A DNA stretch of 47,601 nt from Clostridia bacterium (GTDB taxonomy: Bacteria > Bacillota > Clostridia > Oscillospirales > Butyricicoccaceae). The first letter of the stretch is position 1; each line of letters starts with the position of its first letter. The notes under the pieces are model-generated. The model ran no database searches. It saw only the letters and a list, made by a program, of their open reading frames with translations, and was not told the DNA's origin. The stretch spans positions 1 to 47,601 of the forward strand of contig JAFXDF010000030.1 of NCBI GenBank assembly GCA_017521295.1, written 5' to 3'. The position numbers were made by a program, and so were the translations under genes. This document shows, piece by piece, positions 1,313 through 29,949 of the stretch.

Positions 1313-2608
1313 ATGTATACGCCAGAGGCACTGCTGGACGCGGTACTCCGGCAGCTGCGGGCCGAGATGAGTGAGGTTTTGGTGGATCCCTGGTTCACCA
1401 ATGCTTCTCCCATCACCATCCAGGACGATGTTTTTGTGGTGGAGGCCGCCAGCGAGCTGTTCCGGGATACGCTGACCAACCGGTTCACCGACAATGTTTC
1501 CCAGATCATCACCGATCTTTTGGGCTATCAGGCCAAGCCCATCTATGTTTTTGGCGCCGAGGCTGACAGCTGGCGTCTCCAGAGCGATTCTTCGGTTTAC
1601 GCCGGCTACACCTTTGAAAAGTTCATCGTGGGCAATTCCAATAAGTTCGCCCACGCCGCCGCGCTGGCTGTGGCCAACAATCCCGCCCGTCTGTACAACC
1701 CCCTGTTCATTTACGGCGGCTCCGGCCTGGGCAAGACCCACCTTCTGTTCGCCATCGCCAACTCTCTGCGGAAAAAATATCCCAGCTACCGTATCGTGTA
1801 TATCAAGAGCGAGGACTTCATGAACGAAATGGTGGAAGCCGTGAAAACCTCCGGCTTCACCGACTTCCGGGCCAAGTACCGACAGGCCGACCTACTGCTG
1901 ATGGACGATGTACAGTTCCTCAGCGGCCGGCAGAGTCTTCAGGAAGAGTTCTTCCACACCTTCGAATCCCTGTTCCAGGCCAACAAGCAAATCGTTCTCA
2001 CCTCCGACCGTCCGCCCAAGGAGATCGCCACCCTGAGCGACCGTCTGCAGACCAGGTTTGAAAGCGGCCTGCTGGCCGACGTGCAGTCCCCCGATCTGGA
2101 GACCCGTATGGCCATGGTCAAATCCAAGGCCAACAACCTGGGCATCGACATGCCTCAGAACGTGGTGATCTACATCGCCGAAAACATCACCAACAACGTC
2201 CGTGAGCTGGAAGGCGCCGTCAAAAAAATCGCCGCCATCAACGGCCTCATGGGCAGTCCCATCGATCTTCCCATGGCACAGAACGCCATCAAAGATATTT
2301 TCAAAGAGCGTCCCGGCCTCAATCCCACGGCAGAAATGGTGCTCAAGGAGGTTTCGGCTTTCTATTCCGTGCCCGCCGACAAGATCACCGGCAAAGCTCA
2401 GAACAAGGAAGTGGTGCTGGCCCGAAAGGTGGCAAGCTATCTCATGCGGGAACTTTGCTCCATGTCCTATCCCGAGATCGGTAAGATCCTCAACCGGGAC
2501 CACACTTCGGTCATCTACGGCGTGGAAACCCTCACCAAGACCATGACCAAGGATGAAAGCCTCCGGGATGCCGTCAGCGACATGAAAAAGAACATCCAGA
2601 GCCTGTAA
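1313..2608 (+). CDS. dnaA: chromosomal replication initiator protein DnaA
   Basis: DnaA is the AAA+ ATPase that binds DnaA boxes at oriC and melts the origin to load the helicase. The 431-residue product has the four-domain layout: N-terminal DnaB/regulator-interaction domain (about 1-75), a short linker, the AAA+ core with Walker A GGSGLGKTH (135-143) and Walker B LLMDDVQF (near 198), and a C-terminal DNA-binding domain with the family signature around NRDHTSVIYG (near 400). The ATG at 1313 is chosen because AAAGGGG lies about 10 bases upstream. An in-frame TTG at 1277 has no ribosome site. It is the first gene of the replication run and is followed by a 223-base gap with DnaA-box-like repeats, which may mediate autoregulation. 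Confidence 0.98.
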   Translation: MYTPEALLDAVLRQLRAEMSEVLVDPWFTNASPITIQDDVFVVEAASELFRDTLTNRFTDNVSQIITDLLGYQAKPIYVFGAEADSWRLQSDSSVYAGYTFEKFIVGNSNKFAHAAALAVANNPARLYNPLFIYGGSGLGKTHLLFAIANSLRKKYPSYRIVYIKSEDFMNEMVEAVKTSGFTDFRAKYRQADLLLMDDVQFLSGRQSLQEEFFHTFESLFQANKQIVLTSDRPPKEIATLSDRLQTRFESGLLADVQSPDLETRMAMVKSKANNLGIDMPQNVVIYIAENITNNVRELEGAVKKIAAINGLMGSPIDLPMAQNAIKDIFKERPGLNPTAEMVLKEVSAFYSVPADKITGKAQNKEVVLARKVASYLMRELCSMSYPEIGKILNRDHTSVIYGVETLTKTMTKDESLRDAVSDMKKNIQSL

Positions 2609-2831
2609 TTTTTTCATCCTTCACATTTTCCTGTGAAAAACTTTGTGAAACCTGTGAAAAAACTTGACCTGTGTAAACTTTCGAAAAACTCCCCACCCTT
2701 TTCAACAGGGGGATGAGGACGATTGATTTCAGTCGTTGCAACACTTTCCGTCATTTTTCCCCGGTTTCACAGTCCCTAATATTACGACGAAATAGATTAT
2801 CTTACATAAGAAAGAAAGGAGTGACGCGATC
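2609..2831. other. putative oriC segment (dnaA-dnaN intergenic)
   Basis: This 223-base gap holds four direct TGTGNAAA 9-mers on the plus strand at 2632-2640, 2644-2652, 2653-2661 and 2670-2678, and an inverted TTTCACAG at 2766-2773. They resemble the DnaA box TGTGGATAA with two or more mismatches. An AT-rich stretch follows (2777-2815). Position between dnaA and dnaN is a classical origin location in Bacillota. I did not find a convincing dnaN promoter. The origin call is inference from position plus repeats. Confidence 0.55.
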
Positions 2832-3941
2832 ATGCGTTTTACCTGTGAAAAAACCGCATTGAACGAAGCCGTTTCCGTCTGCAGCCACGCCGTCGGCGCC
2901 AAAGGTACCTCCCCTGTCATGGAGGGTCTGCTGCTGGAAGTCGCTTCCTCCGTCACCATCAGCGGCTTTAACTACAAAACCGCCATTCAGAAAACCATCG
3001 AAGCCGATGTTACGGAAAGAGGCTCTGTGGTACTCAACGCCAAGATCCTCTCTGACATCGTTCGCCGTCTGCCCTCTGACACGGTGGAGATCAACGTGGA
3101 CGACCGTCTGATGGCCACCATCCGCGGCGGCGCTTCCGAGTTCAACCTCATCGCCTCCGATCCCCAGGAGTTTCCCGAGCTGCCCTCTGTGGACCAGGCC
3201 GACAGCTTCCAACTGCCTGCCAGCCTGCTGAGAGAGATGATCTCCGGCACCCTGTTCGCCGTTGGCGAAAATGAAAACAAGCCCATCATCACCGGCTCTC
3301 TCATCGAGATCGAAAACCGTACTTTCCGTATGGTCAGCGTGGACGGCTATCGTCTGGCTGTCCGCCAGGAAGAGCTGGAGATCGACGAGGCTGCCAAGTT
3401 CAGCTTCGTGGTGCCCGGCGAGTCTCTCAAGGATCTGTTCCGCATTCTGCCCGATGACGATCAGCTGTGCACTGTTTACCCTCAGCGTAAGCATGCCCTG
3501 TTTTCCTTTGACAATACCCGCATGACCACCCGCCTTCTGGAGGGTGAGTTTCTCAACTGGCGTGCCGCCATTCCCCAGGAGCAGCCCATCAATATTGAGC
3601 TTGACCGGGCCGAGATCATTTCTGCCGTGGAACGTGTCAGCTTGATCATTTCCGAGCGGCTGAAGAACCCCGTCCGCTGCAATTTCGACGGCAACCGACT
3701 GAAGCTGTCCTGTACCACCGCTTTGGGCCGAAGCTATGACGAGTGCATCATTCCCGACTGCGGCGCCCAGGTGGAGATCGGCTTCAACAACCGTTATCTG
3801 CTGGATGCTCTCCGGGCCTGCCAGGATGAAACCTTTATTCTGGGTCTCAAGAGCGGTCTTTCTCCCTGTACCATGCGTCCGGTGGAGGGCGAAAAGTACA
3901 TTTATCTGGTGCTGCCCGTGCGCCTGAAGGCAGGAGAATAA
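2832..3941 (+). CDS. dnaN: DNA polymerase III beta subunit (sliding clamp)
   Basis: DnaN dimerises into the ring that tethers the replicative polymerase to DNA and recruits repair and initiation-control proteins. The 369-residue length fits three repeated clamp domains of about 120 residues each. The start MRFTCEKTALNEAV and the C-terminal PVRLKAGE are typical; the terminal PMRL-type segment in bacterial clamps forms the floor of the partner-binding pocket. AAGGAG lies 10-15 bases ahead of the ATG. It heads a tight run dnaN-yaaA-recF-remB-gyrB-gyrA with gaps of 0-14 bases, so these genes are probably co-transcribed. Nothing is unusual. Confidence 0.97.
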   Translation: MRFTCEKTALNEAVSVCSHAVGAKGTSPVMEGLLLEVASSVTISGFNYKTAIQKTIEADVTERGSVVLNAKILSDIVRRLPSDTVEINVDDRLMATIRGGASEFNLIASDPQEFPELPSVDQADSFQLPASLLREMISGTLFAVGENENKPIITGSLIEIENRTFRMVSVDGYRLAVRQEELEIDEAAKFSFVVPGESLKDLFRILPDDDQLCTVYPQRKHALFSFDNTRMTTRLLEGEFLNWRAAIPQEQPINIELDRAEIISAVERVSLIISERLKNPVRCNFDGNRLKLSCTTALGRSYDECIIPDCGAQVEIGFNNRYLLDALRACQDETFILGLKSGLSPCTMRPVEGEKYIYLVLPVRLKAGE

Positions 3942-15055: not shown

Positions 15056-15805
15056 ATGGAAGAGGATATCCGACAGCTGCAAAAGCGCTTTGCCGAGCTT
15101 GCCGCCCGGGCCAACGGCCGGGGCCGGTATACCTATACCCAATTTCTCACCCTGGCAGAGCAGGATGTGCTCCAGACCATGGCCCGTCAGCTGGACGCCC
15201 CCTTTGTGTGGATGGGCGGTTACGAGGCCGCCGAGCGGCGGCTGGCCTGTTTCGGCAGGGAAGAGGACATAGGCTATTCACCTGAGAGCCCCATCTGCTG
15301 TCTTTCCATCGCGCCTGCCAGTAAAAAGTTCGCCGGCGACCTGGGCCACCGGGATTTTCTCGGCTCTCTGATGGCGCTGGGCATCAAGCGCCAGTTGCTG
15401 GGGGATATCCAGATCGTGGAGGGCGTGGGTTATCTCTTCTGTCTGGAGGAGATCGCTCCTTATCTTTGCGAAAATCTCATTTCGGTGGGCCGCACCACCG
15501 TCCGGTGTGAATCCTGCGAAGCACCCGAACAGCTGTGCCAGCCTCCCGAACCCACCGAGGTGGTGGTGGCCTCCGAACGGCTGGACGCCCTCATTGCCGC
15601 CGTGTGGAAGATCTCCCGAAACCAGGCCCAGGAACTGCTGGAACGGGGCATGGTATTTATCGACGGGCGGCTGGTGGAAAGCGCCTCCCACACCCTCCGG
15701 GAGGGGGATGTGGTATCGGTGCGGCACCAGGGCCGGTTCCGCTATGAGGGCACCCTTCGGGAGACCAAAAAAGGCCGTCTGCGGGTCTCTGTCCGGGTGT
15801 GGTAA
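15056..15805 (+). CDS. YlmH-like S4-domain RNA-binding protein
   Basis: The 249-residue protein matches YlmH: an N-terminal alpha/beta domain (about 1-170) containing the GHRDFLGSLMALGIKRQLLG stretch that is characteristic of the family, and a C-terminal S4 RNA-binding domain (about 177-245; VVVASERLDALIAAVWKISR, then the GRLVESASHTLREGDVVSVR beta region). YlmH is ribosome associated and has been linked to ribosome quality control in Bacillus. It is usually encoded in the cell-division ylm cluster near divIVA, but here stands alone between MATE genes. GAGGAGGC lies 7-14 bases ahead of the ATG. Confidence 0.88.
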   Translation: MEEDIRQLQKRFAELAARANGRGRYTYTQFLTLAEQDVLQTMARQLDAPFVWMGGYEAAERRLACFGREEDIGYSPESPICCLSIAPASKKFAGDLGHRDFLGSLMALGIKRQLLGDIQIVEGVGYLFCLEEIAPYLCENLISVGRTTVRCESCEAPEQLCQPPEPTEVVVASERLDALIAAVWKISRNQAQELLERGMVFIDGRLVESASHTLREGDVVSVRHQGRFRYEGTLRETKKGRLRVSVRVW

Positions 15806-15811
15806 AAGCCC

Positions 15812-15840
15812 TTGACAACCGATTTTTCCCATGATAGGAT
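15812..15840 (+). promoter_or_regulatory. promoter of MATE copy 3
   Basis: TTGACA (15812-15817), exactly 17 bp, then TAGGAT (15835-15840) preceded by TGA, an extended -10. It starts a leader of about 135 bases to the MATE gene at 15981. Confidence 0.65.
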
Positions 15841-15884: not shown

Positions 15885-15914
15885 TTTTTCACATTTTCCA
15901 CCGATTTTTCCACA
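15885..15914 (-). repeat. DnaA-box-like triad in the MATE copy 3 leader
   Basis: Three 9-mers related to the DnaA box lie within 30 bases: TTTTTCACA (15885-15893), TTTTCCACC (15894-15902) and TTTTCCACA (15906-15914). The last differs from TTATCCACA at one base. Read on the minus strand, their start-to-start spacing is 12 then 9 bp, the same as the triad at 2632-2661. Function is unproven. Confidence 0.5.
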
Positions 15915-15980
15915 GGATAGTGGGCATTTTCAAAGATAAACCATATATCTTGTGTTTCTGCCCAGTTGGAGGGGACAAAT

Positions 15981-17375
15981 ATGGCAAGAAGTCGTAAACA
16001 AAACGTAAACGGAATCACCGAAGGCGTTATCTGGCAGCAGATCATGCTTTTCTTCCTGCCCATTCTGGTGGGTGCCTTTCTGCAGCAGCTGTACAACACC
16101 GCCGACGCCATGGTGGTGGGCCGGTTCGTGGGCACGGCTGCCCTTTCTGCGGTAGGCGGCACCACCAATACCATCCTCAATCTGATCATCGGCTTCTTTA
16201 TCGGTTTGTCCTCAGGCGCCACCGTCATTATTTCCCAGTACTTTGGCGGCGGTGACCAGGAGGAGATCAACCGGGCGGTGCACACTGCCATTGCTCTGTC
16301 CCTGGCCGGCGGCTTGGTGCTGACGGTGGTGGGTCTGGCCACAGCGCCCTGGATGCTGCAGATGCTCAACACCCCTGCCGACGTTATGGAGTTTGCCACC
16401 CCCTATCTGCGGATCTATTTCGCCGGCACCATTGCCAACCTGTTCTTTAACGTGGGCAGCGGTATTCTCCGGGCGGTGGGCGACAGCAAGGGCCCGCTGT
16501 ATGTGCTGGCCTTCTGTACCGTGCTGAACATTGCTCTGGACGTATTGTTCGTGGCGATTCTGGATCTGGCCACTTCCGGCGCCGCCATCGCTACCATTCT
16601 GGCCCAGGCGGTCAGCGCCGTCATCGTTATGGTGATGGTCCACCGCAAGGGTGTGGCCTTCCACATCCATCTGAAGGCCATCAAGCTCCACGGCGATCTG
16701 CTGATGCACATTTTCCGCATCGGTCTGCCCGCCGGTATCGGCTCGGTGATGTATGCCCTGTCCAATCTGATCATCCAGGCCGGCGTCAACGATTTCGGCA
16801 CCATGACCATCGCCTCCTGGACGGTGTTCGGCAAGATCGACTCGGTGTTCTGGATGATCATCGACTCCTTCGGTATCGCCGTCACTACCTTTATCGCGCA
16901 GAATTACGGCGCCCGCAAGATGGCCCGTGTGAAAAAGGGCGTCAAGGTCTGTATCTGGCTGGCCCTCATCATGACGGTGGCCCTGTCGGCGGCTCTATAT
17001 TTCTTTGGCGGCGCGCTGACGGTGTTGTTTACCGATGATCCTGCCGTTATGGCCCGCTCCACCGAGATCATGAAGTTTATGGTGCGGTATTTCTTCACCT
17101 ATCTGTTTATTGCCGTCATTCCCTCGGCTCTCCGTGCCGTGGGCGACAGCATCATTCCCATGATCATCACCGGCATCGGCGTTTGCGGCTTCCGTGCCGT
17201 GTGGGTGCTGCTCATCGCTCCCATCCTGCCCTGGCAGACCCTGGAAGCCACCGTCTGCTGCTACCAGATCAGCTGGGCGCTCACCAGCATCGTCTTTGCC
17301 ATCTATTACTGGAAGTTCGCCCCCATCCAGAACCAGCTGCGGGATATCACCAAGGAAGAGGAGCGACTTGCATGA
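15981..17375 (+). CDS. MATE family multidrug exporter (copy 3)
   Basis: The third MATE exporter in this stretch, 464 residues. Landmarks include LQQLYNTADAMVVGRFVGTAALSAVGGT in helices 1-2 and IAQNYGARKMARVKKG in the second half. The ATG at 15981 has GGAGGGG 6-12 bases upstream; an in-frame TTG at 15966 lies in that ribosome site and is rejected. It has its own promoter (15812-15840) and ends in an ATGA overlap with a GNAT acetyltransferase gene, so the two are translationally coupled. Confidence 0.93.
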   Translation: MARSRKQNVNGITEGVIWQQIMLFFLPILVGAFLQQLYNTADAMVVGRFVGTAALSAVGGTTNTILNLIIGFFIGLSSGATVIISQYFGGGDQEEINRAVHTAIALSLAGGLVLTVVGLATAPWMLQMLNTPADVMEFATPYLRIYFAGTIANLFFNVGSGILRAVGDSKGPLYVLAFCTVLNIALDVLFVAILDLATSGAAIATILAQAVSAVIVMVMVHRKGVAFHIHLKAIKLHGDLLMHIFRIGLPAGIGSVMYALSNLIIQAGVNDFGTMTIASWTVFGKIDSVFWMIIDSFGIAVTTFIAQNYGARKMARVKKGVKVCIWLALIMTVALSAALYFFGGALTVLFTDDPAVMARSTEIMKFMVRYFFTYLFIAVIPSALRAVGDSIIPMIITGIGVCGFRAVWVLLIAPILPWQTLEATVCCYQISWALTSIVFAIYYWKFAPIQNQLRDITKEEERLA

Positions 17376-29861: not shown

Positions 29862-29949
29862 GGAGAGATGGTCGAGTGGTTGAAGGCTCCGGTCTTGAAA
29901 ACCGGCGATATGCGAGTATCCGTGGGTTCGAATCCCACTCTCTCCGCCA
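29862..29949 (+). tRNA. tRNA-Ser (anticodon UGA)
   Basis: An 88-base tRNA with encoded CCA. The acceptor stem is GGAGAGA/TCTCTCC with discriminator G; the anticodon stem CCGGT/ACCGG encloses loop CTTGAAA with anticodon TGA at 29896-29898; a long variable arm (about 29907-29920) marks it as serine-type; the T arm is GTGGG TTCGAAT CCCAC. It decodes UCA and wobble-related serine codons. It lies downstream of serS. Confidence 0.96.

Follow-up and report, generated by a model that had tools for sequence, protein, structure and literature searches.

Clusters of DnaA boxes lying away from the replication origin are a known kind of element. In the excerpted text of PMC4447404, Bacillus subtilis DnaA binds eight strong regions in vitro. 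Peak 4, downstream of gcp and ydiF, contains 10 sites and is strongly bound, with a Kd of 0.15 uM in the presence of ATP versus 0.33 uM with ADP; another strong region lies upstream of trmE, and some B. subtilis operons are described there as DnaA regulated (PMC4447404). Removal of six remote clusters from B. subtilis leads to early initiation, and the same report, in the part available, states that the role of these clusters in regulation is not thought to be significant (PMC5295017). In the DARS cores, three boxes share one fixed spacing, with box I pointing against boxes II and III, and in Escherichia coli both datA and DARS2 have IHF/Fis sites alongside their DnaA boxes (PMC5742627, in excerpt). 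In E. coli, box-rich DNA near the origin has also been proposed to titrate DnaA (PMC12371093, in excerpt). Outside E. coli and B. subtilis, both the role of extra-origin DnaA clusters and whether they are ancient or incidental are unsettled. Below, gcp is taken to be tsaD and trmE to be mnmE.

The window, which is the whole stretch of DNA analyzed here, is contig C41 (47,601 bases) of an assembly of 2,137,826 bases in 113 contigs that is 88% complete. It carries dnaA (1313 to 2608, plus strand; Pfam Bac_DnaA, 1.7e-67, and Bac_DnaA_C, 1e-21), which has a match in 96 of 99 related genomes and is followed by the dnaN ORF (2832 to 3941, plus strand). The predicted DnaA has the usual ATPase and helix-turn-helix domains, and its nearest homolog is 96% identical; among named records, the closest are gut metagenome assemblies carrying the label Clostridia or Oscillospiraceae. 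The gene that usually stands upstream of dnaA is rpmH; here, the minus strand of positions 1 to 964 carries what we take, by eye, to be a pyruvate phosphate dikinase gene. A clear GC skew switch at oriC was not seen across the window.

The initial annotation described two triads of DnaA-box-like 9-mers, one in the dnaA-dnaN gap and one in the leader of a MATE transporter gene, and suggested that DnaA reads both and that the latter is a remote titration or regulatory site. The first triad was indeed found on the plus strand as TGTGAAAAA at 2632, TGTGAAACC at 2644 and TGTGAAAAA at 2653, and the second on the minus strand of 15885 to 15914 as TGTGGAAAA, GGTGGAAAA and TGTGAAAAA, with the same steps of 12 and 9 bp and with CC directly ahead of both. 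The accompanying statement that the boxes differ from the DnaA box by one to three mismatches does not hold at 2644, where the box departs from TGTGGATAA at four positions. In each triad, the first and last boxes fit TTWTNCACA, the E. coli DnaA-box consensus as quoted in the available part of PMC7561715, without a mismatch. Within the window, the two triads are the sole matches to KGTGRAANNNNNKGTGRAANNKGTGRAAAA with at most one mismatch and to TTWTNCACANNWTNCACNNNNTTWTNCACA with at most two, and neither pattern was matched in 100 shuffles (dinucleotide shuffles for KGTGRAANNNNNKGTGRAANNKGTGRAAAA). Across the assembly, KGTGRAANNNNNKGTGRAANNKGTGRAAAA without mismatches matched these two triads alone, and its reversed control matched nothing. 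Since both patterns were built post hoc from the observed triads, independent support comes from the comparative work.

The dnaA-dnaN gap was compared among eight genus genomes and a further named record (L004), with the offsets of L044 re-based on its true first box. Same-strand boxes at offsets 0, 21 and 38-39 and inverted boxes at about 66 and 130 are present in all nine sequences. In the window, they include the exact-consensus boxes 1 (2632 to 2640, plus strand; TTTTTCACA on the opposite strand) and 3 (2653 to 2661, plus strand), whose 21-bp step is kept in 9/9 sequences, a fourth DnaA-like box, TGTGTAAAC, at 2670 to 2678 on the plus strand (offset 38 or 39 in 9/9), and the inverted box TTTTCAACA at 2699 to 2707 on the minus strand (offset 65-67 in 9/9), which is replaced by TTTTCCACA in G001, G002, G005 and G008. 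The middle box (2644 to 2652, plus strand, at a step of 12) is degenerate in the window; it is present in five of the nine sequences, as TGTGGAAAC in two of them, and its absence from the other four counts against the triad as a DnaA receptor. A weak inverted box, TCCTTCACA, lies on the minus strand at 2617 to 2625, 15 bp ahead of the triad, and was scored with at most two mismatches in seven of the nine sequences, L044 being counted from its true first box. At positions where the window has TGTGAAAAA, several relatives have TGTGGAAAA or TGTGGATAA, which supports TGTGAAAAA as a DnaA box. A further TGTGAAAAA lies at 2844 to 2852, within the first codons of dnaN, and is kept in all eight aligned genus sequences; this stretch may do double duty as protein code and DNA signal.

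The likely unwinding site is not the triad but a core at 2763 to 2792, where the box GGTTTCACA is followed by a short C-rich spacer and the DnaA-trio-like CTAATATTACGACGAAA. By inspection, a box followed by trio-like repeats occurs there in 9/9 sequences. This core has the DnaA box, the short spacer, at least three trios and the position in the origin region expected of an unwinding core, a combination that the triads themselves do not have. It resembles the DnaA-trio unwinding system (PMC8287927, in excerpt) and the trio of C. difficile (PMC7561715, in excerpt). In the portions of the literature available, the triads are similar to the low-affinity arrays of E. coli oriC, with boxes 2-4 bp apart, and to the B. 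subtilis unwinding system in having head-to-tail boxes 0-4 bp apart, but they lack a DnaA-trio, and about 100 bp separate the oriC triad from the trio.

The spacing of the triads recurs far beyond this genome, and this class-wide nature of the module is beyond what the initial annotation saw. Among the matches listed for pairs of TTNTCCACA in 87 family genomes, steps of 12 bp (45 rows), 21 bp (32 rows) and 9 bp (15 rows) make up 92 of 150 rows, and within the genus the same three steps account for 27 of the 28 rows listed. The triad was found with up to three mismatches in 80 of 87 family genomes, with a control match in one. With up to two mismatches, it was found in 89 of 291 class genomes, with no control match, and in 110 of 398 phylum genomes, with one control match. 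When one box was moved so that the spacing was 1 bp longer, the number of class genomes matched was 10 of 291, versus 89 of 291. At the same threshold, 202 of 291 class and 288 of 398 phylum genomes have no triad, which counts against the DnaA-receptor reading. In genus g5 (L187-L191), five genomes each have a region with three 12/9 triads, spaced about 120-135 bp from one another. Two candidates were set aside. Matches of g10 genomes to R1, a composite model of the MATE-leader element, turned out to be another locus, with steps of 8 and 12 bp, and a triad-like site in G014 (L102), which by eye falls within repetitive sequence at the gyrA 3' end, is probably a coding coincidence. The g10 8/12 cluster is itself conserved together with further boxes (L126, L128-L130, L134, L269-L275 and L277) and lies, by eye, near a PadR-like and DUF1700-like gene pair.

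The scan of the whole genome and its relatives that had been proposed as a check showed that the triad is rare in the genome, that relatives keep it at fixed addresses and that it is tied to oriC in other genera as well. In four g10 genomes (G017, G029, G049 and G059), a triad precedes dnaA by about 100 bp, and in G032 one follows dnaA at a distance of 15 bp. In the window genome, remote triads with at most two mismatches are at C41:15885, C29:96218 and C70:13300, with a further one at three mismatches near C70:3750; like B. subtilis-type clusters, these are groups of several close DnaA boxes outside oriC. Besides the MATE-leader copy, triads of this genome occupy the tsaD-rex gap (L202) and the pepF-comM gap (L142), and the three-mismatch triad lies upstream of a C39-peptidase-like gene (L143). 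Neighboring genes were identified by Pfam and by tblastn queried with proteins from the window or its genome, and the loci picked for gene context are not a random sample. With the window genome included, the order tsaD-triad-rex is kept in seven of nine genus genomes. In the class, tsaD flanks 10/10 loci among the listed triad matches with at most two mismatches and 9/16 stretches picked for context (L206-L221); in the phylum, it flanks 11/29 loci among the matches listed, with the window genome's own excluded. A match to tsaD was obtained at 37 loci; in all of them the triad follows the matched 3' end at a distance of 89-472 bp, and in 36 the two are on opposite strands. For comM, all 28 rows (26 distinct sites) have the triad past the 3' end and on the opposite strand. 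Other neighbors are mnmE-mnmG, dnaB, spo0A, argH and murC. In L213, L214 and L216 (class families f46 and f48), the triad is found immediately beyond the 3' end of dnaB, which encodes the replicative helicase, and in L219 a gene with a Spo0A C-terminal domain precedes it by about 270 bp.

These addresses bear directly on the comparison with described systems. Like the B. subtilis clusters, the triads are DnaA boxes off oriC; the gcp/tsaD 3' end is their most widespread address, and the mnmE (trmE) neighborhood is common to both. The B. subtilis gcp region contains 10 sites, in contrast to the compact 30-bp triad, and the likeness noted here is one of location. Neither the comM nor the MATE-leader address appears among the top B. 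subtilis peaks cited in the available part of PMC4447404. The E. coli loci datA, DARS1 and DARS2 are likewise remote DnaA-box loci, and the DARS cores, as described in the excerpted literature, also have three boxes at a fixed spacing; classification of the triad as DARS was rejected because all three boxes are parallel in each triad, with no opposed box I. The proposed E. coli titration field is made of dense, scattered boxes, as opposed to the few triads of fixed geometry seen here (PMC12371093, in excerpt). By analogy, the triads look as if they work like, and by location are related to, clusters of the B. subtilis type rather than DARS. Among the papers covered by the literature search, none was found to report the fixed 12/9 geometry, these addresses or the MATE-leader composite.

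The MATE-leader copy is part of a larger conserved element. Upstream is a gene encoding a YlmH-like S4 RNA-binding protein (15056 to 15805, plus strand; Pfam YlmH_RBD and S4), followed by a promoter-like TTGACA-17-TAGGAT at 15812 to 15840 (plus strand; 10/12 consensus matches), the triad, a conserved block CCATATATCTTGTG at 15941 to 15954 (plus strand; 71-100% pairwise identity), a second block AAATATGG at 15977 to 15984 that includes the MATE start codon (plus strand; 88-100% pairwise identity), and the MATE transporter gene itself (15981 to 17375, plus strand; Pfam MatE, 1.1e-56). An imperfect dyad, CGTWAAC-N5-GTWAACG (15993 to 16011, plus strand), lies within the 5' end of the MATE coding sequence. 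Seven genus genomes have one copy each of the dyad, at the MATE-leader locus alone, and it is absent from the other two of nine. The element core TTTTCCACATTTTCCACCGTTTTTTCCACA was found with at most three mismatches in 9 of 99 related genomes, and at the MATE-leader locus in seven of nine genus genomes; G006, in which the S4 gene was not found, was left out of the locus assessment. In the family search, R1 matched at full length in seven genus genomes alone, and its other matches were to the triad or to part of the model. Among seven genus genomes, the triad is 90-100% identical in pairwise comparisons, versus 51-79% at fourfold sites of the S4 gene, and the neighboring spacers are 27-81% and 10-70% identical. 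Judged by these identities, the MATE-leader triad is under strong purifying selection.

The readings of this element differ in what they make of its position. Coincidental resemblance of T-rich sequence to DnaA boxes might be suspected from the post hoc patterns and from the 11 single TTWTNCACA boxes in the window; it is already refuted by the comparative counts, since the triad recurs class-wide at fixed addresses with near-empty controls, and with the empty shuffles it has a negligible probability. The triad pair is not due to chance. Alternatively, the MATE-leader triad could be mainly a transcription switch, with DnaA bound between promoter and start repressing or timing MATE. The triad does lie between the promoter-like site and the MATE start, DnaA-regulated operons are described for B. 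subtilis (PMC4447404, in excerpt), and in G003, whose MATE orthologue sits elsewhere, after rsmG, a triad is still found about 170 bp upstream of it. A similar promoter-like site was seen by eye in G007 and G004, but not in G001, G002, G005 and G008, and the tsaD and comM triads stand at 3' ends rather than at the promoters of those genes. In G001 and G008, the fetched stretch after the element contains no MATE2 orthologue, distant MATE paralogues being found on the other strand instead, yet their triads are identical at 30/30 positions and their dyads at 95%. Retention of the element without an adjacent MATE gene leans against control of MATE alone, and a switch as the main function is considered unlikely, although clearly ahead of the two readings that follow.

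The locus might instead be a datA- or DARS-like element that alters the nucleotide state of DnaA, its extra blocks being sites for architectural proteins. It has a single copy per genome, lies near oriC and combines DnaA boxes with conserved non-DnaA blocks, much as E. coli datA and DARS2 pair boxes with IHF/Fis sites (PMC5742627, in excerpt). Its three boxes are parallel, whereas in DARS box I faces the other way from boxes II and III; the locus has no known partner protein, and the spacing of the conserved blocks differs by a few bases among genomes, all of which makes this reading improbable. Even less probable is that the conserved leader acts as RNA, through a hairpin around the MATE start that controls translation. 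The predicted consensus fold allows CCATAT to pair with ATATGG over the start codon, but the covariation term is unfavorable (+0.59), and the reading frame of G008 is shifted into an immediate stop while the dyad is still kept. Rfam gave nothing at or above the gathering score for the conserved leader, with one weak chance match below it; a tRNA at 29862 to 29946 was the sole other match over the window and the MATE leader.

The reading preferred here, that DnaA reads both triads as a fixed-geometry receptor and that the remote copies are DnaA-binding clusters delaying re-initiation, is considered probable, with some reservation. The receptor would consist of three head-to-tail boxes with gaps of 3 and 0 bp, whose starts, 12 and 9 bp apart, span about two helical turns overall. 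At oriC, the triad would join the box array beside the unwinding core; elsewhere, the receptor would be placed at a few conserved addresses, namely the tsaD 3' end, the comM 3' end and, in this genus, the MATE leader 13 kb from oriC. ATP-DnaA may assemble cooperatively on the triad, and the remote triads, binding DnaA soon after the origin region is copied, would contribute to holding back re-initiation. DnaA bound at the MATE leader may additionally lower MATE transcription. The parts of this proposal differ in strength. Binding of DnaA to the triads is well supported by inference, including from the helix-turn-helix domain of the window genome's DnaA, titration by remote triads acting mainly as DnaA sinks is plausible, and control of MATE as an added effect is possible. 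Weighing against the DnaA-receptor reading are the degenerate middle box in the window's oriC triad, the extra conserved MATE-leader blocks, which DnaA titration does not explain, and the orientation of the MATE-leader triad, whose CCACA strand is that of the upstream gene, unlike the tsaD and comM copies. On balance, the sequence comparisons support the interpretation given in the initial annotation, and because relatives keep the trio of boxes at the same places, the triad probably helps to time DNA replication.

More tentatively, and with doubt outweighing belief, the 12/9 triad may be an old fixed-geometry receptor common to Clostridia, serving the origin and remote control sites, with a tsaD address that predates the split between Bacilli and Clostridia. 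The MATE-leader copy of this genus would then be a single-copy, datA-like control locus near oriC, with extra protein sites at CATATATCTTGTG and CGTWAAC-N5-GTWAACG, and would act independently of MATE. With a fixed 30-bp motif recurring at predictable addresses throughout Clostridia, remote DnaA sites would become findable from sequence alone, so that titration versus transcription would become directly testable in laboratory clostridia, and the strict spacing of the motif would predict how three DnaA molecules must sit together.
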